Source of the DNA: Brochothrix campestris FSL F6-1037
GTDB taxonomy: Bacteria; Bacillota; Bacilli; Lactobacillales; Listeriaceae
DNA length: 64,000 bases
Assembly (NCBI RefSeq): GCF_000525915.1
Contig: NZ_AODH01000004.1
Coordinates: 1 to 64,000 of the forward strand
Direction of reading: 5' to 3'
Every line of letters starts with the position of its first letter. Positions within the stretch are counted from its first letter, which is position 1. This document shows positions 5,360-57,112 of this stretch, piece by piece. Made by a program: the position numbers and the translations under genes. Below the pieces are notes generated by a model, which saw nothing but the letters and a program-made list of their open reading frames with translations, did not search any database and was not told where the DNA came from.

Positions 5360-5421
5360 TTCGGATTAACTATATGTAAAGGATAGTGTATGATGAAAGT
5401 AAAGAAAAGAGGTGTGAAGCG

Positions 5422-6267
5422 GTGTTGAAAAACGGTGATACTATCGGTCTAATTGCTTGTTCAAATGGTCGTCCGCGTGCATCTGAAATAAAGCTAAAGC
5501 AAATCGAGCAGTTTCTGGCTGATTTGGGTATTCAAACAGTTAGAGCGGCAACACTTTTCGCTTGTGAAGGCCAGGCCAGCGGCACAGCGCATCAACGTGC
5601 GGTTGAACTTGCTAAATTATATCAGGATGACAAAATTAAACTGATTTTTGATATCTCAGGTGGCGATTTAGCGAATCAAGTGCTGCCCTTTATTGATTTT
5701 GACATTATAAAACAAACAAAAAAACCACTCGTTGGATTGAGTGATTTAACGACCTTGTTAAATGCGATTTGGCAAAAAACAGCTGTGGCAGGTTACTATT
5801 TCCAATTGATGACCTTAGCGGGTTCGTCCGCTGCCACTCAACAACAGCAGTTTATTAAACAGTTTATGTCTAATGGATCGTTGCCTAGCTATCATTTTGT
5901 TCGTAATGAACAAACTTTTTCGGGCATTGTTTATGGTGGCAACATCCGGTGTTTGCTGAAATTAGCAGGGACATCGTATTGGCCAAAGGTAAACAAAGGG
6001 GTGTTATTGTTAGAAGGGTTATCGGGTAATTATGAACGCAACGCGACCTATGTGGCTCAGTTGGCCCAGTTAAATGTGTTTAATAACTGTGTCGGTGTGG
6101 TATTAGGTACCTTTAGTGAGTTAGATAAGACTGGGAGTCAACAAATCGAGCAACTGCTAGCGGATGTATTACCACCGGGTATTCCACTAGTGCGTACGGC
6201 GGCAATCGGACATGGCGATGAGGCAGGCGTTTTGCCAATTGGTCATGAGGTCACCTTTAAAAGCTAG
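5422..6267 (+). CDS. LD-carboxypeptidase (peptidase S66, LdcA/MccF family)
   Basis: Serine peptidase of family S66, which cleaves the terminal D-Ala from murein tetrapeptides or, in MccF-type members, hydrolyses microcin-like acyl-adenylates. Diagnostic parts are the N-terminal GDTIGLIACS strand, the DISGGDLANQVLPFIDF segment, the GLSDLTTL nucleophile elbow that carries the catalytic Ser, the LLLEGLSGN segment with the catalytic Glu, and the C-terminal GHGDEAGVLPIG with the catalytic His. The length of about 281 aa fits. I prefer GTG 5422 (or TTG 5425) because AAAAGAGGTG lies 8 bp upstream, whereas the earlier in-frame ATG at 5386 has no such site. No signal peptide is visible, so it probably acts in the cytosol on recycled muropeptides. 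It converges on the next gene with an 11-bp overlap. Confidence 0.85.
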   Translation: MLKNGDTIGLIACSNGRPRASEIKLKQIEQFLADLGIQTVRAATLFACEGQASGTAHQRAVELAKLYQDDKIKLIFDISGGDLANQVLPFIDFDIIKQTKKPLVGLSDLTTLLNAIWQKTAVAGYYFQLMTLAGSSAATQQQQFIKQFMSNGSLPSYHFVRNEQTFSGIVYGGNIRCLLKLAGTSYWPKVNKGVLLLEGLSGNYERNATYVAQLAQLNVFNNCVGVVLGTFSELDKTGSQQIEQLLADVLPPGIPLVRTAAIGHGDEAGVLPIGHEVTFKS

Positions 6268-6550
6268 CGGAAATATGATGCGCTTCATCAGTAAATAGTT
6301 CGAGTTTAATGTAGGGATTCAAGTCGTATTCGACCATTAACCAAGAACGAATCGCCTGAATAATCATGACGTTATCTAGAAAACAAAGCAGTTTGTTTTG
6401 GAGGTATACACGAGCTTCAAATGACTGTGACTGTTTAGAGTGTTGCAGTTGTGTGGTTAATAATTGACTATTGAGTTGGCAATCGTATGAGATTGAAGCG
6501 TTAATCGCTTCAATGATCATCGCGGTTGTCATTTTTTGTTTATGTGGCAT
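6257..6550 (-). CDS. Small conserved-type protein of unknown function
   Basis: A 97-aa acidic/amphipathic protein that I do not recognise. It has no clear membrane segment or signal peptide; the middle (LLCFLDNVMIIQAIRSWLMV) is hydrophobic but reads as a buried helix. The start ATG 6550 has AAAGGAAG about 10 bp upstream on the minus strand, so I believe it is expressed. It lies directly downstream (same strand) of the Xre regulator at 6634-6957 with an 83-bp gap, so the two could be co-transcribed. Its 3' end overlaps the convergent LD-carboxypeptidase gene by 11 bp. Confidence 0.6.
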   Translation of the reverse strand: MPHKQKMTTAMIIEAINASISYDCQLNSQLLTTQLQHSKQSQSFEARVYLQNKLLCFLDNVMIIQAIRSWLMVEYDLNPYIKLELFTDEAHHISASF

Positions 6551-6633
6551 TATAAGGCACTTCCTTTATGTTAACTATAAAGTAATTATAGTTAAGGAAG
6601 ATGTGAAACAACTGAAAATAACGAGAAGATTAC

Positions 6634-12189: not shown

Positions 12190-12227
12190 TCAGTGTTAAA
12201 CCTGTATGGAAATGCACAATAAAAAAA

Positions 12228-12268
12228 GAGCTTAAACGTTGATATAATAGCGTTTAAGTTCTTTTTTT
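12228..12268. terminator. Bidirectional terminator between ssrA and integrase
   Basis: Stem GAGCTTAAACG with CGTTTAAGTTC, preceded by seven A and followed by seven T, so it can work on both strands. It now ends ssrA transcription from the left and integrase transcription from the right; the original ssrA terminator lies beyond attR. Confidence 0.85.
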
Positions 12269-12292: not shown

Positions 12293-13465
12293 TCATTGTT
12301 TTATTATTTTTGGTACATTATCGGTACACTCTAATTCGCGTGTTTGTTGATAGAGATTATCCATGACTTGGTCAACTTTAGATGATTCACGTTGCTCAAG
12401 TTCATCAAGAATATGACCATAAGTTTGTAATGTAGTAACAATATCGGTGTGACCTAATCTTCGTGAAACATACTTGATGTTTATTTCACGATACAACAGA
12501 ATGGAAGCGTGAGTGTGACGTAATGCATGGAAAGTAATCGAATTTATTTTTAGTTCAGCGCAGGCTGCTCTTAGAACTTTGTTGACAGCAGTGTTTGAAT
12601 TTATGGTTGCATTTGCATCTATAAACACCAGGTTCTTGCTGTTTTTTCTTTTTTTAGTTTTGTTTGTTGGTAAACAAGTAGCTCTTTTAAAAAAGAGAGA
12701 GTGAAAGGATCTACAGAAATAGTTCTCATTGAACCATCATTTTTTGTTGGCAAAAAATCAAGCGTTCGTTGATAATCAAAGGTTTTATTGATTTTAATCG
12801 TTTGTTGTTTAAAGTCAACACAATCCCAGGTAAGACCCACCACTTCTGAAAAACGACAACCAGTGGCGATACCGAATAAAATCATATACCGCGAAGGATA
12901 ACGTGGATTAAGATTATCTTGCATATTGTTAGATAATTTTAGGAGTTCATTCTCGTGTAAAAATTTAAGACTTTCGTCTTTGTTTTTAACTTGGCCAACA
13001 ACCTTAACACGATAGGTAGGGTCTTTAAAGATAACACCGTCATTTAATGCATCCTGTAAACAGGCGCGTGTATAGGTGTGGATTTTTTTTTACAGTAGCA
13101 GTTGCATGTGTTGCTCCATAATCATTTAAAAATTCTTGATAGAGATGACGATCGATATCTTTTAACTTTGTGGCCTTAAAAAAACGTTCCGCTGTATTGA
13201 TACTAATTTCAATGTCGCGATCATTCTTCCAACTTAATTTTCCTTTACGGAAAAGCGTGTACCAATTAGTGAAATATTGAACGAAAGGAATTTCACCAGC
13301 TGTTAAAGAATTACCTCGACTTAATTGTTGTTCTAATTCAGTGGCAGCGATTTGTGCTTCTGACTTTGTTCTAAACCCATTGACACTTTTTGTTTTACGA
13401 ACGCCTCCTATATAAAAAGAAATCCGGAATTGCCATCCGGATTTTAATTTTTTGTAACTAGCCAT
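12293..13465 (-). CDS. int: Phage tyrosine integrase, two frameshifts
   Basis: Tyrosine recombinase of about 390 aa. The N-terminus (KSGWQFRISFYIGGVRKTKS) is an AP2-like arm-binding domain and is followed by a SAM-like core-binding domain. The catalytic Arg lies in FGIATGCRFSEVVGL. The HALRHTHAS box carries His and Arg, RRLGHTDIVTT carries the last His, and LQTYGHI carries the nucleophile Tyr. The frame breaks twice: at a nine-base T run (13083-13091 on the plus strand), where one base is extra, and at 12642-12647, where one base appears missing (EKNSKNLVFIDANA is restored). All catalytic residues are present, so I expect a functional enzyme if the indels are artefacts. It targets the adjacent ssrA attachment site. 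Confidence 0.92.
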
Positions 13466-15339: not shown

Positions 15340-15733
15340 TCATTTCTTTTCGATTTGATTGTCTTTAGCTTCTTTCATGCGTTTCCAAAATACGCCAATT
15401 ACAATGTCGTTTAACTGTTTCTTTTCTTCTTCAGTAAGTTTGATGTCGCCATAGTACATTTCTTGCTGATTATCCAAAAACTTTTTTAAATCTAATTTAT
15501 CTTGTTCATTAGCCCAGTCAGGAACAGAAAGATTACTCAAACCTAAAAGGTGGTCTACTGAAACGTCATAGAGAACTGCAATATCGGAAATCATATCTGT
15601 ATCAGGTTTCCGATAGTTACGTTCATATCCGGACAAAGCACCGGCAGTAATGCCTAGTTTTTCAGCAGCATCTTTTTGAGTTAAATTTGTACGTTCTCTA
15701 GCTTTTTTTTAATTCTCTTCCTAAATCGCTCAT
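15340..15733 (-). CDS. CI-like Xre repressor, frameshifted
   Basis: ATG 15733 (MSDLGRELKK) is followed by a break in an eight-base T run (15703-15710 on the plus strand). Removing one base gives ARERTNLTQKDAAEKLGITAGALSGYERNYRKPDT, a classic Cro/CI helix-turn-helix, and a total of about 130 aa. The C-terminal half is acidic and helical with no S24 peptidase motif, which fits regulation by the adjacent ImmA-like peptidase rather than RecA autocleavage. GAGGTG precedes the start. Its probable operators are the palindromes TAAACGAATCGTTTA in the adjoining intergenic region. Confidence 0.88.
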
Positions 15734-15776
15734 TGTAAGCACCTCGTTAACTTGATACTAAAATAGTAACATGATA

Positions 15777-15883
15777 TAAACAATATGTTTAGTTTTATTA
15801 ACGAATCGTTTACTTTTGCCCTAAAAAACCTTGACTAAACGAATCGTTTATTTTATAGTGTAATTAAGTAAACGAATTGTTTA
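15777..15883. promoter_or_regulatory. Lysogeny switch: PR promoter and repressor operators
   Basis: Four related palindromes lie between cI and cro: TAAACAATATGTTTA (15777-15791), TTAACGAATCGTTTA (about 15798-15812), TAAACGAATCGTTTA (15836-15850, perfect) and TAAACGAATTGTTTA (15869-15883). PR reads TTGACT (15831-15836), a 17-bp spacer, and TATAGT (15854-15859). The perfect operator occupies the spacer, so repressor binding would block RNA polymerase. A fifth site, TAAGCGAATCGTTTA, is at 16097-16111. Confidence 0.88.
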
Positions 15884-15899
15884 TTAATAGGAGGCCAAA

Positions 15900-16099
15900 A
15901 TGAAGATTTATGAAAAGATAGAAATGATTAGAATAGAAAAAAGAATTTCTAAAAAAAAGTATTGCAGAAGCATTTGGATTCACAGCACCATGGTATTCAA
16001 AGATATCTAACGGAGAAATAAATATTAAAGCGGACGATATACAAAAGTTTGCTGAGATATTAGAAGTTGAAAGTAATATTTTTTTTTGATCAAAGATAA
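15900..16099 (+). CDS. Cro-like HTH protein, frameshifted
   Basis: ATG 15900, 5 bp after TAGGAGG. An eight-A run (15951-15958) breaks the frame; with one A less the protein reads ...KRISKKSIAEAFGFTAPWYSKISNGEINIKADDIQKFAEIL..., a small Cro-type helix-turn-helix. A nine-T run (16079-16087) then creates an early stop; one T less gives the ending NIFFDQR and a total of about 65 aa. Being the first rightward gene after the operators, it is the expected lytic-switch Cro protein. Confidence 0.8.
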
Positions 16100-16111
16100 G
16101 CGAATCGTTTA
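16097..16111. promoter_or_regulatory. Additional repressor operator downstream of cro
   Basis: TAAGCGAATCGTTTA matches the cI-cro intergenic operators with one change. It overlaps the cro stop codon and precedes the DUF771 gene, so it could act as a roadblock to the early transcript. Confidence 0.7.
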
Positions 16112-16749: not shown

Positions 16750-17638
16750 TTGGCAGAAAAAAAAGAATTAAATGGAGTTTTATCAGAAGGATTTGGTTTT
16801 GCACCTAAGCAGGTCTTTAAAGACGATCGATTGAGTATAGAAGCCAAAGCTATCTATGGCTTTATCGCTTCTTATGCTGGCGCTGGAGCAACGGCTTATC
16901 CAAGTGTGTCATATATTTGTGCGAAATTAAAAATAGGCGAAAAAAGATTTTATAAATATCGAAAAGAACTTGTGGCCTGCGGTTATTTAAAAGTGAGTAA
17001 ACGTTTTAATAACAACAGAAATAAATCAAACATGTATGAAATTGTACTAGGTAATATTCTTTTAGCCGATGTCGAAAAAAAGGAAGAAGATAATTCTCAA
17101 AATCAAACTGATAGCAACGATATTGATAACGGTCAATTTGATAGTGGTCAATCTGACCCCGGTCATTTTGAACACAGTCAAAACAGAGGAACTAATAGTA
17201 ACAGTATTAATAGTAACAGTATTAATAATAACAGTAATAAAAAAGAAAAGAGAAAAAAGAAGTCAGTGAATAAATTCACTAACGACTCCAGCGAATTACA
17301 ATCAGCAGAATTACTTCTGACGATGATTCGAAAAATTAATCCGAAATATAAAAAACCCTGACCTACAAAAATGGGCTGATGTCATACGACTGATGATTGA
17401 ACGAGACGGACGTAATCTGGAGGATATTAGAAAAGTTATTATTTTTGCACAGACTAATAAGTTTTGGCAGGTCAATATTTTAAGCACACAAAAACTTCGA
17501 GATAAATTCGACATACTCATGACTCAAATGTTAACCGCAAAACGACAAACAGGAGGGCAATACAATGCAAATAATCAACGAAACAAGCCTCAGCAAGCTA
17601 AGCAGAGCAATTTCCAACCGGGCACGCCCGATTGGTGA
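16750..17638 (+). CDS. Phage replisome organizer (DnaD-like), frameshifted
   Basis: Replication initiation protein of about 295 aa. An N-terminal winged helix (SEGFGFAPKQVFKDDRLSIE, then KAIYGFIASYAGAG and CAKLKIGEKRFYKYRKELV) is typical of phage replication organizers. A low-complexity Asn/Ser-rich linker is followed by a C-terminal DnaD-like region. The frame breaks at a six-A run (17350-17355); one A less restores PKYKNPDLQKWADVIRLMIERDGR. Start TTG 16750 has AAAGAGG 8 bp upstream. The linker DNA carries reiterated AT-rich repeats and may include the phage origin. The gene overlaps the helicase-loader gene by 74 bp. Confidence 0.82.
17186..17245 (+). other. Candidate phage replication origin (AT-rich reiterations)
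   Basis: Inside the replisome organizer gene, the motif AGTAACAGTATTAAT is repeated three times with slight variation (AATAGTAACAGTATTAATAG, then AATAATAACAGTAATAA). Theta-type phages commonly place iterons inside the initiator gene, so this is a reasonable origin candidate. The encoded Asn/Ser linker is otherwise low complexity. Confidence 0.45.
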
Positions 17639-18428
17639 ACACTGTGATGAACATCCGCATGTACACAAATGGGAGCTGGATAACGAAGATGGCTCGAAAT
17701 TTATTTACTGCCCAATTTGTGATCGCGACAAGAGAAATAGGGAACAGCAAATGGAAGTTATGGAAAGGCTGTTGGTGAACAGTAGAGGACGTTTAGAGCC
17801 TAAACAACATAACTACAGCATGCTACGTAAAAAATCGCTTGTAGGAGATGTCAGTACGTATAGAGCGAGTATTTCAAGCTATGTTACAAAACAACATGAA
17901 CAAGAACAGGCAATTGAAACGTCAAAAGAAGTTATTAAACGAGCGATTAAGGGTGAAGCCTTCAGTTACTGGCTTATCGGTAATGCTGGTGTTGGTAAGT
18001 CTCACATTGCTTGGGGCATCCTCAACACGATTAATGAATATACAAAGGCTAATAAAAAGTGCTTGTACCTCAATGTTCCAAAAATGTTTGATAAAATCTA
18101 TCACTCGTTCAATAACAAAGAATCAAATACAACACAATCGTATTTTATTGAGTTAGTGACAGAGGCTGATGTTGTCGTACTCGACGATTTAGGTGCTGAA
18201 ACAGGTACCGTCAATTCTAACAACGCAGCATCGAACTTTACGACAACGGTTTTAAATAAAATTACGTCAGAACTACAGACAAAACCATCGATTATCACAA
18301 CTAATTTATCAAAGGATGAACTGGTGAATATGTATGATGCTAGAACGGTTTCTCGGTTGATGGCTAACATCAAAATTACAACATTTAAAAACACACTCGA
18401 TTATCGAGTAAAGGCGGTTGATTGGTAA
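17565..18428 (+). CDS. DnaC/IstB-like helicase loader ATPase
   Basis: A 287-aa AAA+ protein that loads the replicative helicase. An N-terminal zinc-binding segment (HCDEHPHVHKW...CPICDRDK) is followed by the ATPase core: Walker A GNAGVGKSH (about residue 140), Walker B VVVLDDLGAE (about 202), and the sensor-like IITTNLS near 242. ATG 17565 lies inside the 3' end of the organizer gene and is preceded by GGAGGGC. It forms a two-gene initiation module with the organizer. The phage encodes no helicase of its own in this window, so host DnaB-type helicase is presumably recruited. Confidence 0.92.
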   Translation: MQIINETSLSKLSRAISNRARPIGEHCDEHPHVHKWELDNEDGSKFIYCPICDRDKRNREQQMEVMERLLVNSRGRLEPKQHNYSMLRKKSLVGDVSTYRASISSYVTKQHEQEQAIETSKEVIKRAIKGEAFSYWLIGNAGVGKSHIAWGILNTINEYTKANKKCLYLNVPKMFDKIYHSFNNKESNTTQSYFIELVTEADVVVLDDLGAETGTVNSNNAASNFTTTVLNKITSELQTKPSIITTNLSKDELVNMYDARTVSRLMANIKITTFKNTLDYRVKAVDW

Positions 18429-19090: not shown

Positions 19091-19276
19091 ATGAAAAATG
19101 AAAAAAAGAAAGTAGTAGTTGAATCAGACGGAGTCTATGTGAAGTTGAATGGAGAGTTAACTAAGGTGTGTCCAGTGCCTTCCACAGGTTTTGGACAAAC
19201 AGATATTAAATGGATTAATTACGAACCAACAACAATGACAATGGCGACAACTTATAAAGTTAAGGAGATGAAATAG
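19091..19276 (+). CDS. Hypothetical phage protein (61 aa)
   Basis: ATG 19091 after AAAGGATGGTGA. Lys-rich N-terminus and a short beta-type body. No family recognised; the gene is in the string of small early ORFs. Confidence 0.55.
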   Translation: MKNEKKKVVVESDGVYVKLNGELTKVCPVPSTGFGQTDIKWINYEPTTMTMATTYKVKEMK

Positions 19277-19278
19277 AC

Positions 19279-19444
19279 TTGGAAAATAAAAGATGCTGTA
19301 GTGAGTCAGGTAATCGGTATTTTAGTGAATAGTAATATGAATGCTAAGGAAGCCATCGAAGTATTGGAAAAAGCGAATGCTCTGTTTCTAGAAAGAAGTT
19401 GGCACACAGCATCTGAGGGCTATGTGCCAAAAAAAGTTAATTGA
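19279..19444 (+). CDS. Possible small phage ORF, frameshifted
   Basis: A frame encoding KDAVVSQVIGILVNSNMNAK and EAIEVLEKANALFLERSW ends at TGA 19442. It looks like a real helical small phage protein but has no good start in frame. TTG 19279 would reach it if one A were removed from the AAAA at 19283-19286; GTG 19301 is an alternative without a ribosome binding site. Its end overlaps the convergent gene by 8 bp. Confidence 0.4.
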
Positions 19445-19751
19445 TCATATCAATAATTGTCGTTATTGATTGAGTAGGAAGAATAAACGGTGTATTTTTC
19501 GAAGTAATTGTATTTTCAAATGTAAAGGAATGGTCCTTGTACTCCAATCGATCACTCATATAACAACGTGTAATTCGAATGAAATTGAAATGAATTAAGT
19601 TATTTAACACATTTGGGTACTCTTTTTGAATGTTATAAGCAGAAGAATCTATTTCAAAAGTTGTTGCATCATTTGAAAAAGAAATAGTATCGAATCCATC
19701 AATAATTATATCAGAACCATCATTTATACAAATTTTCAATACTGCATCCAT
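19437..19751 (-). CDS. Antisense moron-like gene of unknown function (104 aa)
   Basis: This gene lies opposite to the surrounding early operon. I choose ATG 19751 (MDAVLKICINDGSDI) because GTGAGGTG lies 8 bp upstream; the longer open frame to 19793 lacks a site. The product is acidic and predicted mostly beta strand (SDIIIDGFDTISFSNDATTF, then FIRITRCYMSDRLEYKDHSF), with no membrane helix. Family not recognised. Its own orientation and promoter region (TAGTATAACAAAA about 19776-19790) suggest expression in the lysogen, as for morons. Confidence 0.65.
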   Translation of the reverse strand: MDAVLKICINDGSDIIIDGFDTISFSNDATTFEIDSSAYNIQKEYPNVLNNLIHFNFIRITRCYMSDRLEYKDHSFTFENTITSKNTPFILPTQSITTIIDMIN

Positions 19752-19891
19752 GTTAATCACCTCACTTTCTCTAGTTAGTATAACAAAAAACACTTATCTC
19801 GGATTTAAACCATTGAAATATATTATGGTTAGTTCTGAAATGTTAACAACGAAAATGGTTGGAATTTATAAAGTTAGGGAGTTGAAATGTA

Positions 19892-20092
19892 ATGAAAACA
19901 GCAATGGAAGTGGAAGTGAGTAACGAAAAAAGAATAGTTGAAGCTTTAGAGAGCATAGAAAAGCACCTTAGCACTTTGGCGAAAGATACTAAGGCAAATA
20001 AAGAGTTGCGCATAGAAAATAGGGATTTATTTGCTGACTTAGAGAAGAAAATAGAAGATCTAGCAAAGAATCCTTTTAACTTGAGTGATTAG
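19892..20092 (+). CDS. Small coiled-coil phage protein (66 aa)
   Basis: ATG 19892, with TAGGGAGTTG upstream. Entirely helical and charged (ESIEKHLSTLAKDTKANKEL, then ADLEKKIEDLAKN), a predicted coiled coil. Unknown function. Confidence 0.6.
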   Translation: MKTAMEVEVSNEKRIVEALESIEKHLSTLAKDTKANKELRIENRDLFADLEKKIEDLAKNPFNLSD

Positions 20093-20114
20093 ATAAAAGA
20101 AAGGGGAAAGTTAA

Positions 20115-20300
20115 ATGTCTTATCAAGCAGTTTACTTTGTGAACAATATTTTCAGAAAAAAAATAGTAAGCATTGTTGAATCTAACGACATAAAAATGCT
20201 ATTGGATGAGAATGAAATTAAAGAAATAAGACATACAGCTGGAATACCTAAGTATAAAAAGTTATATATATTATTAGAAAAAAATGTATTTGAAGTGTAA
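20115..20300 (+). CDS. Hypothetical phage protein (61 aa)
   Basis: ATG 20115 after AAAGGGGAAAG. No domain recognised. It ends exactly at the stop codon of the convergent DUF2513 gene. Confidence 0.55.
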   Translation: MSYQAVYFVNNIFRKKIVSIVESNDIKMLLDENEIKEIRHTAGIPKYKKLYILLEKNVFEV

Positions 20301-20669
20301 TTAGTTAGTTCCTGAAAGTAGTTTTACAACGATTTCACTCCCGATAGAAGAAAGCATGTTTAACGATACACTAGTTAATTTTTCAGTTGCTGATTTTGTT
20401 TTAGCCCAGACAGTATCATCTCTAATCGTATCCAAAAAAGCATGTCCATCCCAGGTTAGCGAGGATATACGGCATGAATATAGTTTGTTGCTCGCATATT
20501 TGAACGTGACATTTACGAAGTTTGCTTCTTTTAATTTTTCTAAGGTGTATATAATTTCATTTTCAGTATAAACTGTAGGGAAATTTAAACTCTGCAACGA
20601 TAGAGTAGTGTTGGCTTGTTCTTCAATAGCCATTAAAACATCTCTTACACACTCATGATTAAGTTTCAT
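20301..20669 (-). CDS. DUF2513 family protein, antisense in the early region
   Basis: 122 aa from ATG 20669 (MKLNHECVRDVLMAIEEQA), preceded by GAGGGTGG. The start motif and the pattern of a winged-helix-like core (YTENEIIYTLEKLKEANFV) followed by ISSLTWDGHAFLDTIRDD are characteristic of DUF2513, common in prophages of Firmicutes. The ending TSVSLNMLSSIGSEIVVKLL is amphipathic. Function unknown; expression from the minus strand inside a plus-strand operon suggests a lysogenic-conversion gene. A leftward promoter may lie at about 20690-20720. Confidence 0.82.
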   Translation of the reverse strand: MKLNHECVRDVLMAIEEQANTTLSLQSLNFPTVYTENEIIYTLEKLKEANFVNVTFKYASNKLYSCRISSLTWDGHAFLDTIRDDTVWAKTKSATEKLTSVSLNMLSSIGSEIVVKLLSGTN

Positions 20670-20731
20670 TTTTTCACCACCCTCTAATAGAATTATAACA
20701 AAAATACGTATATCTGGTCGAAACACTCGAA

Positions 20732-20778
20732 GGATATTAAAGGATAATCATTATGGTTATCCTTTAATATCCTTTTTT
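20732..20778 (+). terminator. Very strong terminator upstream of the ArpU-like gene
   Basis: A 19-bp near-perfect stem (20732-20750 with 20754-20772; one G-T pair) and a 3-base loop, followed by TTTTTT. It would stop rightward early transcripts before the regulator gene, or stop antisense reading of DUF2513. Read-through or a dedicated promoter is needed for the downstream genes. Confidence 0.88.
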
Positions 20779-20801
20779 ATTTTATGAAAGGAGGAATAAT
20801 T

Positions 20802-21302
20802 ATGAGTAGAAAAGAACAATTTAGCGATTTGCTTTTTGAATATGCTGTTTGTAAAAGGTACGTCAATAGAGAAGCAAACAAAAGAACGGAATCAACCGAG
20901 AAAACGTTGTTGAATAGTATGGCTCGTGATTTAGGCGAAGCGATGGAATACATGGAGACAGGTATCGATCCGTGGAATTATAAAAGCGAAGCGAGTGCAC
21001 CTAAAAGAAGGATTACATTAATTGCGGATGAACATTTGCTATCGGTATTAAAAAGTCAACAAGCTCCAATAGAGGAAGAATTGGAAGCCAATACGTTTGA
21101 TGAAGCATTATTGAACGACTTACTAAAAAATTTGAGCGCACGTGAAAAAGAATGTTATCTATTAATTAAACAAAGTTTATTTTCATATAACGCAACAGCT
21201 GATTTGCTGAATATTAGTGTAGGTGCTGTTGAGAGATTTGTCATTCGCGCGACTGCGAAGATAGAAAAAAAAATAAACAAAATAATCCATTTGTTGAATT
21301 AA
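20802..21302 (+). CDS. ArpU-like late transcriptional regulator
   Basis: 166 aa from ATG 20802 (GAAAGGAGG upstream). The C-terminal third contains a sigma-70 region-4-like helix-turn-helix: LSAREKECYLLIKQSLFSYN then ATADLLNISVGAVERFVIRA. ArpU/RinA-type proteins at this position control late gene expression in Firmicute phages; that role is inferred. It follows the strong terminator at 20732-20778 and precedes the second recombinase by 13 bp. Confidence 0.82.
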   Translation: MSRKEQFSDLLFEYAVCKRYVNREANKRTESTEKTLLNSMARDLGEAMEYMETGIDPWNYKSEASAPKRRITLIADEHLLSVLKSQQAPIEEELEANTFDEALLNDLLKNLSAREKECYLLIKQSLFSYNATADLLNISVGAVERFVIRATAKIEKKINKIIHLLN

Positions 21303-21315
21303 AGGAGTGGTAAGT

Positions 21316-21861
21316 GTGAATTTTGTTGAACCAATACGAGATAAGAATGTTATACGTGAAATCAAAAAATATTTATTAATTAAAGATAGCGGTGGACGTA
21401 ATTATACGTTATTTGTACTAGGCATTAACGTTGGATTACGTATTAGTGATCTTTTACTTTTAAAAGTAAAGGATGTTAGAGGCGATTATATTAATATTCG
21501 AGAAAAAAAGACCGGAAAACATAAGAAGATAAAATTAAATAAAGAAGCAAGAAAAGCTGTCAGCCGCTTTATCTATAATAAAAGCGATGATGATTGGTTA
21601 TTTGCCAGTAGAAAAGGTTATGCTGCAATATCAAGAATTACAGCTTATCGTATTTTAGTTGATATCCAAGAGACCTTTAAACTAGGAAACCTCGGGACAC
21701 ATAGTTTACGTAAAACATTTGGTTACCACTTCTACAAGGAATATAAAGATGTAGCTGCCTTGCAAATTATTTTTAATCATGCGGACCCTAAAATAACGCT
21801 AAGGTACATTGGTATTGAACAAGATGGATTAGATACGATGATGGAAGGATTCGGTTTATAA
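21316..21861 (+). CDS. Small tyrosine recombinase (second integrase-like protein)
   Basis: 181 aa from GTG 21316 (AAAGGAG 8 bp upstream). It consists only of the catalytic domain: LGINVGLRISDLLLLK with the first Arg, the GTHSLRKTFGYH box with His and Arg, FNHADPKITLRYIG with the second His and nucleophile Tyr. The N-terminal arm- and core-binding domains of the main integrase are absent. Such short recombinases accompany ArpU-like genes in several Firmicute phages; the substrate is unknown (possibly multimer resolution or late DNA processing). Confidence 0.9.
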   Translation: MNFVEPIRDKNVIREIKKYLLIKDSGGRNYTLFVLGINVGLRISDLLLLKVKDVRGDYINIREKKTGKHKKIKLNKEARKAVSRFIYNKSDDDWLFASRKGYAAISRITAYRILVDIQETFKLGNLGTHSLRKTFGYHFYKEYKDVAALQIIFNHADPKITLRYIGIEQDGLDTMMEGFGL

Positions 21862-24970: not shown

Positions 24971-25324
24971 ATGAAAAATAAAACGAAAATCAAGCGGCGC
25001 TATGATAATCTAGTTAAAATATTCGATGAAATTCCAGAAGAAAAAGTCAGAGTGGCCAAACCACTTATGCAGCGACTGGCATTCATGCAGGTGACATTAG
25101 AAAAACTGGAAGAAGAAGTTAATGAGTACGGCCCTATCATTTTAATGGAGAACGGCAAACAAGTGATGAACATTGAGAATCCAGCCCAGAAGTCATACAA
25201 CGCAATGATTAATCGCTACAATGCGATGTATTCGAAAGTATTAGACTTATTACCTAAAAACGAACTGACATCCATTGAAACGGATGATGGGTTCGATGCT
25301 TTTGTAGGTGAACGTGGTGAGTAA
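24971..25324 (+). CDS. terS: Terminase small subunit
   Basis: 117-aa helical protein preceding terL with an overlap. The pattern LMQRLAFMQVTLEKLEEEVN, then GKQVMNIENPAQKSYNAMIN resembles P27-type small terminases, which bind the packaging site and recruit TerL. AATGAAA start with GAGGTGTCC upstream. Confidence 0.8.
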   Translation: MKNKTKIKRRYDNLVKIFDEIPEEKVRVAKPLMQRLAFMQVTLEKLEEEVNEYGPIILMENGKQVMNIENPAQKSYNAMINRYNAMYSKVLDLLPKNELTSIETDDGFDAFVGERGE

Positions 25325-27024
25325 GCAAGATCACTCTTTGCGGCTAGATGAAAGTTCGATTTACTTGTATTGGAAAACGTTCAAGCAAAATGGTGGCACT
25401 GAAATTGTGAGTAAAAAGATTTACCGTACGTACCGAAAACTAGTGAAAGATTTACATGATGTCGAAGGTGAATATTATTATAGCCATGATCGTGCGCAGC
25501 ATGTTATTGACTTTATCGAAAAGTATTGCAAACACTCCAAAGGTAAAATGGGTGGAAAACCAATTGTTTTGGAATTATGGGAAAAAGCGATGTTGGCTTC
25601 TATCTTTGGTTTTATAGATATCGAAGGCAATCGGAAATACCAAAGAGCCATTTTGATTATTGGAAAAAAGAATGGTAAATCGTTAATCGCATCTGCAGTT
25701 GCACTTTATTTACAAGTTGCAGATGGTGAACCTGGTGCCGAAATATATGCGGTGGCCACAAAAAAAGACCAAGCAAAAATCATTTGGAATGAGTCGCGCA
25801 GCATGGTGCGTAAATCGCCGGCACTGCGTAAGCGAATCAAAACAAAAGTCGCTGAAATATCGAGTGAAGAATTTAATGATGGCGTTTATAAGCCGTTAGC
25901 CAGTGACAGTGATACGCTCGATGGTTTAAATGTTCATGGCGCATTGATGGATGAATTTCACCAGTGGAAACACGGCCGACCTCTTTATGACATTATTGTT
26001 GATGGTATAGCTGCCAGAGAGCAGCCACTTATTTTTATGACATCAACTGCAGGTGTTATTCGTGAAGATATTTACGATGAGATTTATGATGAAGCCGAGA
26101 TGACCATTTCAGGATATGACTTAGACGATGGATACTCCGATGAGAGGTCTATTTTTTTTTGTGTATGAATTGGATAAGCGAGAGGAATGGAAGGACGAGG
26201 ATTGTTGGAAAAAGGCAAATCCTGGACTGGGAACAATTAAAAACCTCCGAACCTTACGTGAAAAAGTAGGGAAAGCGAAACAAAACCTCCGGCTTGTTAA
26301 AAACTTAGTGTGTAAAGAGTTTAATATTCGTGAAACAGCCACAGAAAGTTGGCTAACCTTTAACGAGTTGAACAATGAAGCAACGTATGACCTCGCTAAA
26401 TTAAAGCCTCGTTATGGTGTGGGTGGTGTCGATTTATCTCGCACGACCGATTTAACGTGCGCCACAGTTATTTTTAGAGTTGCGGGGGATCCAACGATTT
26501 ATGTTAAACAAATGTATTGGCTCCCAGAAGATATTTTTCAAGAACGTATTCAAGACGATAGAATACCCTACGACAAGTGGAAAGATGCCGGACACTTAAG
26601 GTTGAGTCAAGGTAATAAAATTGACTATCGCGACATTACGGAGTGGTTTTTAGAAATACAAAACACGTATGACATCTATTTATTCAAAACGGGTTATGAC
26701 AATTGGAGCTCTACTTACTTTATTAAAGATATGGAGTCCAATTTTGGTAAAAACTCGATGGACCAAGTTATGCAAGGTAAACGAACGCTTTCAGGTCCAA
26801 TGCACAACTTAGGCGCAGATTTAGCCTCTAAAGTAATTAATTACAACAACAACCCTGTTCTGAAGTGGTGTATGTCGAATACAACGATTGAAGTGGATAG
26901 GAACGGAAACATTCAACCAGATAAAGGTAAAAATAAGAAACGTCGTATCGATGGATTAGCAAGTCTTTTAGACGCGTATGTTATTTACGAACGCTATCTG
27001 GAAGAATATGAGTCTGTCATTTGA
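25314..27024 (+). CDS. terL: Terminase large subunit, frameshifted
   Basis: DNA-packaging motor of about 569 aa. ATPase domain: Walker A GKKNGKSLIA (about residue 122), Walker B ALMDEFHQW (about 213), coupling motif FMTSTAG. The frame breaks at a nine-T run (26152-26160); one T less gives RSIFFVYELDKREEWKDE. The nuclease domain then begins with GVGGVDLSRTTDLTCATVIF, whose Asp is the first metal ligand; DNWSSTYF and the KGKNKKRRIDGLASLLDA segment complete it. GTG 25314 or 25317 is the start, overlapping terS by about 10 bp. Confidence 0.93.
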
Positions 27025-27043
27025 TGTGAAGGGCGGTGAGAAA

Positions 27044-28236
27044 TTGGGTTTGTTTAATTTTAAGAAGAAAACAAAAGAGAAAACGACAGAAGTCAGTTCA
27101 TATCAAATGATGAGTGACACCGGGACTGGTTATTATTCATGGAACGGTGACATTTACAAGTCTGATATTGTTCGGTCAGCAATGCGGCCTAAAGCACAGA
27201 CCATTGGTAAAGCCGTTGCTAAACATATGAAAAAAGATGCTGATGGTAAATTAATGGTGAACGACGATCCTTATATGCGCTTTTTATTGGAAGAACCGAA
27301 TGAGATGATGACCATGCAACTGCTACTTGAAAAATTAGCGAATCAACTTGAACTGAATGGGAATGCTTTTGCGTTAATCGATAGAGATGAGAATGGTTAT
27401 CCGGTTAGATTATATCCGCTAGTAGGTACGCAGTTCCGATTGTTACAAGGCGAACAAGGGACCTTATACTTAAACTGCTTTTTACTAACTGGCAAACAAT
27501 ACACGTTTAGATACGCTGATATCATCCATTTAAGAAAAGATTTTAATGATAATGATTACTTTGGCGATAGTTTAGCACCCGCATTGGCACCTTTGATGGA
27601 AATCGTTAGCACGACGGACCAGGGAATTGTTAAGGCCATCAAAAATTCTAATGTCATTCGTTGGCTATTGAAATTTAACCAGGTACTTCGTCCAGAAGAT
27701 ATTGAAGAAAATACAAAGGCATTCACAAAAAAGTTTTTTTATCGGAAGAAGCTGAATCTGGAGGAGCTGCCGGTGTAGATACAAAAGCAGAAGCTATTCA
27801 GATAGAGCCAAAAGATTATGTGCCGAATGAACGTCAAATGGCTGTGACTAAAGAGCGTATTTATTCATTGTTTAATTCAAATGAAAAGATAGTGCAATCT
27901 AAGTACACAGAAAACGAATGGATTAGTTACTATGAAAGCCAAATCGAACCGGTCTTGATGCAGTTATCCGGACAATTTTCAGTGAAGCTATTTAGTCGAC
28001 GTGATCGTTTTGACGGCAATTCAATTATTTTTGAATCATCAGCACTTACATTCGCGAGCATGAAAACAAAACTCGGATTAGCAGCATTAGTTGATCGCGG
28101 TGTTTTAACGCGTAACGAAATGAGGAGTTACTTTAACTTGTCACCTGTTGAAGGTGGTGATGTGATGGTCCTTCGATTAGATACAGCTACTTTGAGAGAA
28201 GGTAAAGGAGGTGATGAAGAAGATGCCGAAGATTAA
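27044..28236 (+). CDS. HK97-family portal protein, frameshifted
   Basis: Portal of about 398 aa forming the dodecameric head vertex. Start TTG 27044 (MGLFNFKKKTKEK) follows GGGCGGTGAG; the ORF reaches further left but with no support. Family hallmarks: DTGTGYYSWNGDIYKSDIVRSA, LEEPNEMMTMQLLLEKLANQ and the LNGNAFALIDRDENGYPVRLYPL region. At a seven-T run (27734-27740) a base appears missing; adding one gives KKFFLSEEAESGGAAGVDTK and joins the C-terminal half. Its end overlaps the protease gene. Confidence 0.92.
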
Positions 28237-54069: not shown

Positions 54070-54091
54070 AAGTAATACGTGTAAGACAGAA

Positions 54092-54132
54092 GACAGGCGA
54101 GTAGTTGCATTCAACTACTCGCCTGTCTTTTG
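54092..54132 (+). terminator. Terminator of the EIIC-TIM barrel operon
   Basis: 16-bp perfect stem (GACAGGCGAGTAGTTG with CAACTACTCGCCTGTC) with a four-base loop and TTTTG. It separates converging transcripts. Confidence 0.88.
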
Positions 54133-57070: not shown

Positions 57071-57077
57071 ATAAAAT

Positions 57078-57112
57078 GCCCCCGTAACGTTTTGGTTACG
57101 GGGGCGTTTTAT
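57078..57112. terminator. Bidirectional terminator
   Basis: GCCCCCGTAAC-GTTTTG-GTTACGGGGGC followed by GTTTTAT on the plus and ATTTTATTT on the minus strand. It ends both the exporter and the converging GH1 operon. Confidence 0.88.

Follow-up and report, generated by a model that had tools for sequence, protein, structure and literature searches.

Genes that lie antisense within the early operon of a temperate phage, such as orf11 and orf19 of phage 80alpha, have been termed noncontiguous operons, and RNA sequencing (RNA-seq) revealed a clear transcription switch around these two genes after induction (PMC11087260; this and the other papers are cited for those of their sections that concern such loci). 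For phi13 an antisense transcript adjoining the antirepressor gene has been reported (PMC9694928), probably that of phi13_06; and Abi-alpha (ef2833) is expressed in the lysogen, has its own mapped start site and aborts infection (PMC6356687, section 3.2.1). How Gram-positive temperate phages restrain their late regulator is an open question in the case of Ltr (PMC13123087): the control of Ltr is itself little studied, the cited sections of that paper describe no leader switch, and no literature search was aimed at antitermination before ArpU/Xpf. Here we analyze a prophage locus of Brochothrix campestris FSL F6-1037 (contig NZ_AODH01000004.1, positions 1 to 64,000; the window, i.e. the whole stretch of 64,000 nucleotides), in which two genes, one for a protein of 104 amino acids (aa; antisense gene 1, P0001) and one for a DUF2513 protein (antisense gene 2, P0002), run against plus-strand early genes, and in which a long hairpin precedes a sigma/ArpU-like regulator gene.

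We propose that the locus combines two separate devices, antisense accessory cassettes and an attenuator that would gate the late-gene regulator, and the sequence comparisons lead us to hold this reading with a probability of about 0.7. The 104-aa and DUF2513 genes would be accessory genes placed antisense in the lytic early operon, with their own putative extended -10 promoters free of the repressor operator; they would be transcribed in the lysogen, where the early operon is silent, and be shut down after induction by the head-on early transcript. The hairpin would serve as the terminator of an attenuator that lies in the regulator leader. As it emerges, this leader would form either the terminator or a small antiterminator made of GTCY, a stem with an A-rich loop, and GGAC; the folds are alternatives because they share the GGAC. 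Unless a signal intervenes, early transcription would end before the regulator; a signal that stabilizes the small hairpin would let the polymerase pass and open late gene expression.

The initial annotation had described two genes running against the early transcript, each with a ribosome binding site, and both open reading frames (ORFs) and their Shine-Dalgarno (SD) sites were confirmed. A 47-aa plus-strand ORF overlaps antisense gene 1 by 8 bases, and the stop of a plus-strand gene at 20300 adjoins the end of antisense gene 2 at 20301. In a survey of 136 low-GC loci (identical upstream stretches being removed among the antisense singletons), a near-consensus TGNTATAAT, matching at least 7 of 8 positions, lies upstream of 71 of the 127 antisense singletons and is perfect in 39; at co-directional followers the figures are 17/566 (1 perfect) and at the first genes of divergent pairs 18/174 (4 perfect), these tallies being descriptive counts, since the rows are related. 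The gp11 and gp19 genes of 80alpha, antisense in the early operon, carry putative promoters of this type, GTGTATAAT and TGCTATAAT, respectively, beside the SD of their neighbour, and the promoters of PVL orf36 (DUF2513) and phi13_06 are nearly alike. The antisense singletons fall into 71 protein clusters; among ten representatives that were scanned, one is an Abi_alpha protein (180.8 bits), one a DUF4145 protein that matches PADLOC PD-T7-4 (225.3 bits) and one YozE-like. Phage phi13 (L176) also holds an unannotated minus-strand open frame of 215 codons (5381-6600) that lies antisense among early genes and has a hydrophobic end.

The presumed repressor operator AAACGAATCGTTT occurs within 15799-16110 and was not found at either antisense promoter of the window; repressor control of the antisense genes was rejected for lack of it. 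A special promoter common to the two window genes was rejected as well: their flank similarity of 0.42 falls inside the between-phage range (95th percentile 0.54), and the pair is unremarkable next to means of 0.44 for within-phage pairs of different families and 0.34 between phages.

The distribution of both genes is patchy. Among 148 relatives (the window's own genome included) P0001 is present in 2 and DUF2513 exceeds its cut-off in 4, and the nearest syntenic relative, L187 of the same family, matches the window in the order of its DnaC-like gene, small genes, ArpU-like gene and integrase-like gene, lacks both antisense genes and carries another antisense ORF elsewhere. The antisense genes are therefore not universally conserved with the replication module, which the initial annotation had named as an outcome that would refute its reading. 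For antisense gene 1 no Pfam family over its cut-off, no PHROG match and no PADLOC model was found; its predicted structure (predicted local distance difference test, pLDDT, 48.5) was not used. The 104-aa family comprises 25 loci with 8 distinct proteins, from contigs named Enterococcus pseudoavium, E. durans and Atopobacter phocae, a Listeria wastewater contig and viral contigs. In all 25 loci the upstream gene is divergent on the opposite strand and the -10 matches at least 7 of 8 positions; 3 of them have a same-strand gene downstream. Two features flank antisense gene 1 in the window. An 80% direct repeat (19231-19274 and 19845-19888), in which the end of a DUF3954-like gene recurs across it, is perhaps the scar of a cassette insertion; and past its end, at 19399-19430, a 12-bp minus-strand hairpin (-20.7 kcal/mol, z -4.3) with a weak T-rich tail is a possible terminator of this gene.

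Antisense gene 2 belongs to DUF2513 (PF10711) with 93.1 bits against a curated Pfam cut-off of 29.6; no PADLOC model matched it, and a literature search for the name DUF2513 found no paper. The family was surveyed in 80 viral loci with 56 distinct proteins, using a mechanical gene call, and aligned with 50 of 54 distinct sequences plus P0002. It is antisense to both neighbours in 23 of 34 low-GC loci (in line 6, mixed 4, at an edge 1) and in 0 of 22 high-GC loci (in line 13, mixed 8, at an edge 1); in low-GC phages, DUF2513 is habitually antisense. Of 19 annotated records of Bacillota and Fusobacteria, 12 have it antisense to both neighbours, and all 19 have it on the other strand from the early or lytic genes that they display; two proteobacterial records are exceptions, Pasteurella Pmp2, where it stands in line, and Pseudomonas Cruim01, where it goes with tail genes.

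By analogy, the likely role of the antisense genes would be protection of the lysogen against other phages, or alternatively, for DUF2513, regulation. That DUF2513 serves not as a defence protein but as a winged-helix regulator, acting on the lytic programme or on its own promoter, is the alternative that we take most seriously, tentative as it is: its predicted winged-helix fold is confident (pLDDT 90.3), the model has weak fold matches to MarR/PadR-like chains (best E 0.0046), a PadR chain also matches weakly by profile, and relatives are annotated as regulators in their records. Against it stand the patchy distribution given above, which extends to unrelated hosts, and the lack of an identified operator for DUF2513. 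The moron-like character that the initial annotation ascribed to the two genes gains support by comparison, from the promoters, the patchy distribution, the sister defence genes and the 80alpha RNA-seq (PMC11087260); the lysogen-on and lytic-off pattern is well founded for like-arranged genes and would extend by inference to this phage. The survey of such cassettes offers a practical rule for finding lysogen-directed prophage genes: look in the early operon for a single gene that lies on the lysogenic strand and has an extended -10 next to its neighbour's SD. This rule would cover candidate defence genes such as DUF2513 and the 104-aa family.

The second device centres on the hairpin before the regulator, whose gene matches phrog_1190 at E 3.8e-24 (a profile match with a longer start at 20784). 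The terminator of the initial annotation is real as a plus-strand hairpin with a T-tract, and its stem is slightly longer than the 19 bp given: the arms are 22 nt and 95% complementary, or 21 bp with one mismatch allowed. Among 15 simulated 12-kb sequences a one-mismatch repeat with arms of at least 14 bp arose in only one, at 14 bp, and the RNA folds with -27.8 kcal/mol (z -8.1; 0/200 shuffles as good). Only the plus side bears the T-tract (on the minus side the sequence is CGAGTGTTTCG), so the hairpin is a plus-strand terminator, with the stable stem and directly following U-tract of the intrinsic type. Insulation of the antisense genes, also suggested at first, is rejected on the grounds of this orientation and of the relatives: transcripts of the plus strand have already passed through gene 2 when they arrive at the terminator, the minus side has no U-tract, and relatives without the antisense genes keep a hairpin at this place, L187 among them, directly before its ArpU-like gene. 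Only 18 bases separate the end of the T-tract at 20783 from the ATG at 20802, and therefore no promoter fits behind the terminator.

In the regulator loci L192-L208, recovered by a phrog_1190 search of 246 relatives, 16/17 carry a terminator at or below -18 kcal/mol whose end lies 18-34 bases ahead of the regulator start. Twenty leaders were aligned (the window copy is L207; L198 was left out as near-identical to L197), and they share one layout: GTCY, a 4-bp stem, an A-rich loop of 4-5 bases and GGAC. Next comes the terminator, and its 5' arm begins with that same GGAC (GGAT in the window, where it is again shared by both folds). The small hairpin has 86.9% of its cells paired, both sides have changed in 6 of 8 pairs, and its covariation is 0.419 versus 0.109-0.139 in slid controls, with 0/500 shuffles as high, a count that is not a probability because the rows are related and the leaders were picked for having a terminator. 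In the terminator stem 93.6% is paired, both sides have changed in 4 of 7 pairs, and covariation is 0.362 versus 0.029-0.225 in slid controls. Where the first G-C pair has become A-U (the window, L199 and L204), the small hairpin is kept and the terminator still forms. Two mutually exclusive folds, both conserved, are what the leaders hold, and on this comparative ground they would be the marks of an attenuator; as far as conserved structure goes, the earlier suggestion that the hairpin gates the ArpU-like gene has strong support. The sequence, position, conservation and covariation of the two folds are observed; the existence of an antitermination signal, and its nature, is what we infer from them, and stabilization could come from a protein, be it an early one of the phage, one of the host or the regulator, or else from translation of the upstream gene.

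A covariance model, R1, was built from the 20 leaders (its E-values are rough). It matches 14 of 20 further regulator loci fetched later at E <= 1.7e-5, matches that are not all independent because some share a genome with each other (L286, L287 and L288; L290 and L291) or with a training leader (L283, L284); it found no match in the other six (L285, L293, L294, L295, L299, L301), and none of 13 weak sigma-like loci (L209-L221) falls below E 0.25. In another set, 15 of 31 non-training loci of the regulator family match at E < 0.01, and none of 25 named phage stretches, most of them without a regulator gene, is matched. In loci of Bacillus type a small gene, of 42 or 70 aa, stands between the element and the regulator; the 42-aa gene and the sigma-like gene behind it may correspond to xtrA-xpf of PBSX. 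Over 119 whole genomes R1 gave 18 matches in 14 genomes, 13 of which precede a phrog_1190 ORF; matches before genes that are not sigma/ArpU-like occur at L311, L313, L314, L315 and L318 (a possible membrane protein, a small phage protein of helix-turn-helix (HTH) type and others). Rfam gave 12 matches in the window up to E 5, all below the gathering threshold, and in a scan of 14 loci nothing but a tRNA.

Two other explanations of the leader were weighed. The hairpin might be a mere end-of-operon terminator, with an incidental small hairpin and a regulator fed by leaky readthrough; intergenic terminators are indeed common in general (of 121 control genes whose gap is 50 bases or longer, 31 have one at -10 kcal/mol or better) and the small hairpin is missing in L203, but so strong a terminator precedes only 1 of 71 co-directional control genes of the related loci (1 of the 30 whose gap is that long), and covariation on both sides marks the small hairpin, which leaves this explanation unlikely. 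We consider it equally improbable that the attenuator is worked by translation, a ribosome that ends the upstream gene covering GTCY and so allowing the terminator, and the antiterminator forming otherwise: in many loci the upstream gene does end about 83-103 bases before the regulator, near GTCY, but the distance from the end of the called upstream gene is about 300-500 bases in the window, L192, L194, L195, L196 and L200. That the antisense transcripts act as RNA, pairing with early mRNA when a related phage enters (superinfection exclusion), the proteins mattering little, has a working precedent in STnc6030 of prophage BTP1 (PMC7067206) and could draw on five viral contigs (L085-L089, 4001-4070) in which a 104-aa family allele is cut by a stop after codon 23 with promoter and SD intact, but it is the least credible of all, given antisense protein families conserved across distant phages (23-55% identity, with SD sites) and sister cassettes that encode protein defence systems.

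Several observations weigh against the two-device reading. A 7-of-8 promoter match is missing from 56 of the 127 antisense singletons, six low-GC DUF2513 genes stand in line with both neighbours, and for 80alpha orf72, antisense too, the cited sections report that no antisense transcript was seen (PMC11087260). On the side of the leader, the manner in which the 20 rows were picked and their relatedness count here as well; G012 (L203) and G019 (L208), relatives of the same family, lack the antiterminator or the strong terminator, a terminator directly adjoins the regulator in only 5 of 38 loci of other Bacilli (several others have the element, separated from the regulator by one small gene), and 5 of the 18 genome-wide R1 matches precede other genes. 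The prophage itself has broken genes: int (12293-13465), cI (15340-15800), the large terminase with its ATPase and nuclease halves (25308-27024) and portal (26978-28236) are each split over frames, which means either a decayed prophage or sequencing errors; the assembly is 85% complete, in 127 contigs. The coordinates are collected in Table 1.

Table 1. Features of the antisense genes, the regulator leader and their neighbours in the window.
Feature	Position	Strand	Details
DnaC-like gene	17565-18428		left edge of the stretch with small plus-strand genes and the two minus-strand genes
Antisense gene 1 (P0001)	19437-19751	-	104 aa; ATG at 19751, stop at 19437; SD GAGGTG
Putative extended -10 of antisense gene 1	19777-19785	-	TGTTATACT, 7 of 8 consensus match
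Antisense gene 2 (P0002, DUF2513)	20301-20669	-	122 aa; ATG at 20669, stop at 20301; own SD
Putative extended -10 of antisense gene 2	20692-20700	-	TGTTATAAT, 8 of 8 consensus match
Antiterminator-like hairpin	20712-20735	+	ATCT-GG-TCGA-AACAC-TCGA-A-GGAT; covariation over 20 leaders
Terminator hairpin and T-tract	20730-20783	+	arms 20730-20751 / 20753-20774; T-tract 20773-20783 TTTTTTATTTT
Sigma/ArpU-like late regulator	20802-21302	+	166 aa, from ATG after SD
Integrase-like gene	21307-21861	+	3' of regulator; Pfam Phage_integrase 79 bits

The upstream part of the DUF2513 minus-strand promoter overlies the DNA of the antiterminator, so that antisense transcription could, speculatively, affect the latter. 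In hairpin-free regulator loci of other Bacilli (L223, L232, L234, L238, L245, L246, L277) a TATTATA- or ATTATAA-like motif stands directly before the SD, perhaps a promoter in place of the attenuator. Outside the early region the window has three more long inverted repeats (54087-54132, 57071-57112 and 12221-12268) with arms of 18-21 bp. A search of phage DNA for a relative of the early region returned a 1% match only, and among viral contigs none with ArpU and DnaC-like neighbours was found beyond the same prophage.

Taken more widely, we give even odds that the leader is an undescribed RNA switch before the sigma/ArpU/Xpf-type regulator of many Bacilli prophages, acting as a checkpoint between early and late lytic genes. 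If true, an RNA-binding factor of phage or host would decide whether an induced prophage makes particles, and the checkpoint could explain induction that stays early-only; a conserved leader switch would be a concrete and testable answer to how the late regulator is restrained.

Among known systems, the leader resembles in layout the ribonucleic antiterminators of BglG/LicT type, in which a short imperfect hairpin overlaps with its 3' side the 5' arm of an intrinsic terminator; it differs in sequence (16.1 bits with bglG-cis-reg of Rfam, whose threshold is 80) and has no known binding protein. With prophage morons and lysogenic defence genes such as Abi-alpha (ef2833; PMC6356687), the antisense genes share the form of a small accessory single gene with its own, here putative, promoter, and the 104-aa family and DUF2513 differ in having neither a known phenotype nor a PADLOC match. 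The noncontiguous operons (80alpha orf11, orf19 and ith/tha; phi80 tai/ati; phi13) involve other genes in another host, and the window, in which no cognate inhibitor was identified, is like-arranged by sequence only; what it has in common with them is the arrangement itself, genes that lie antisense to both neighbours in an operon.
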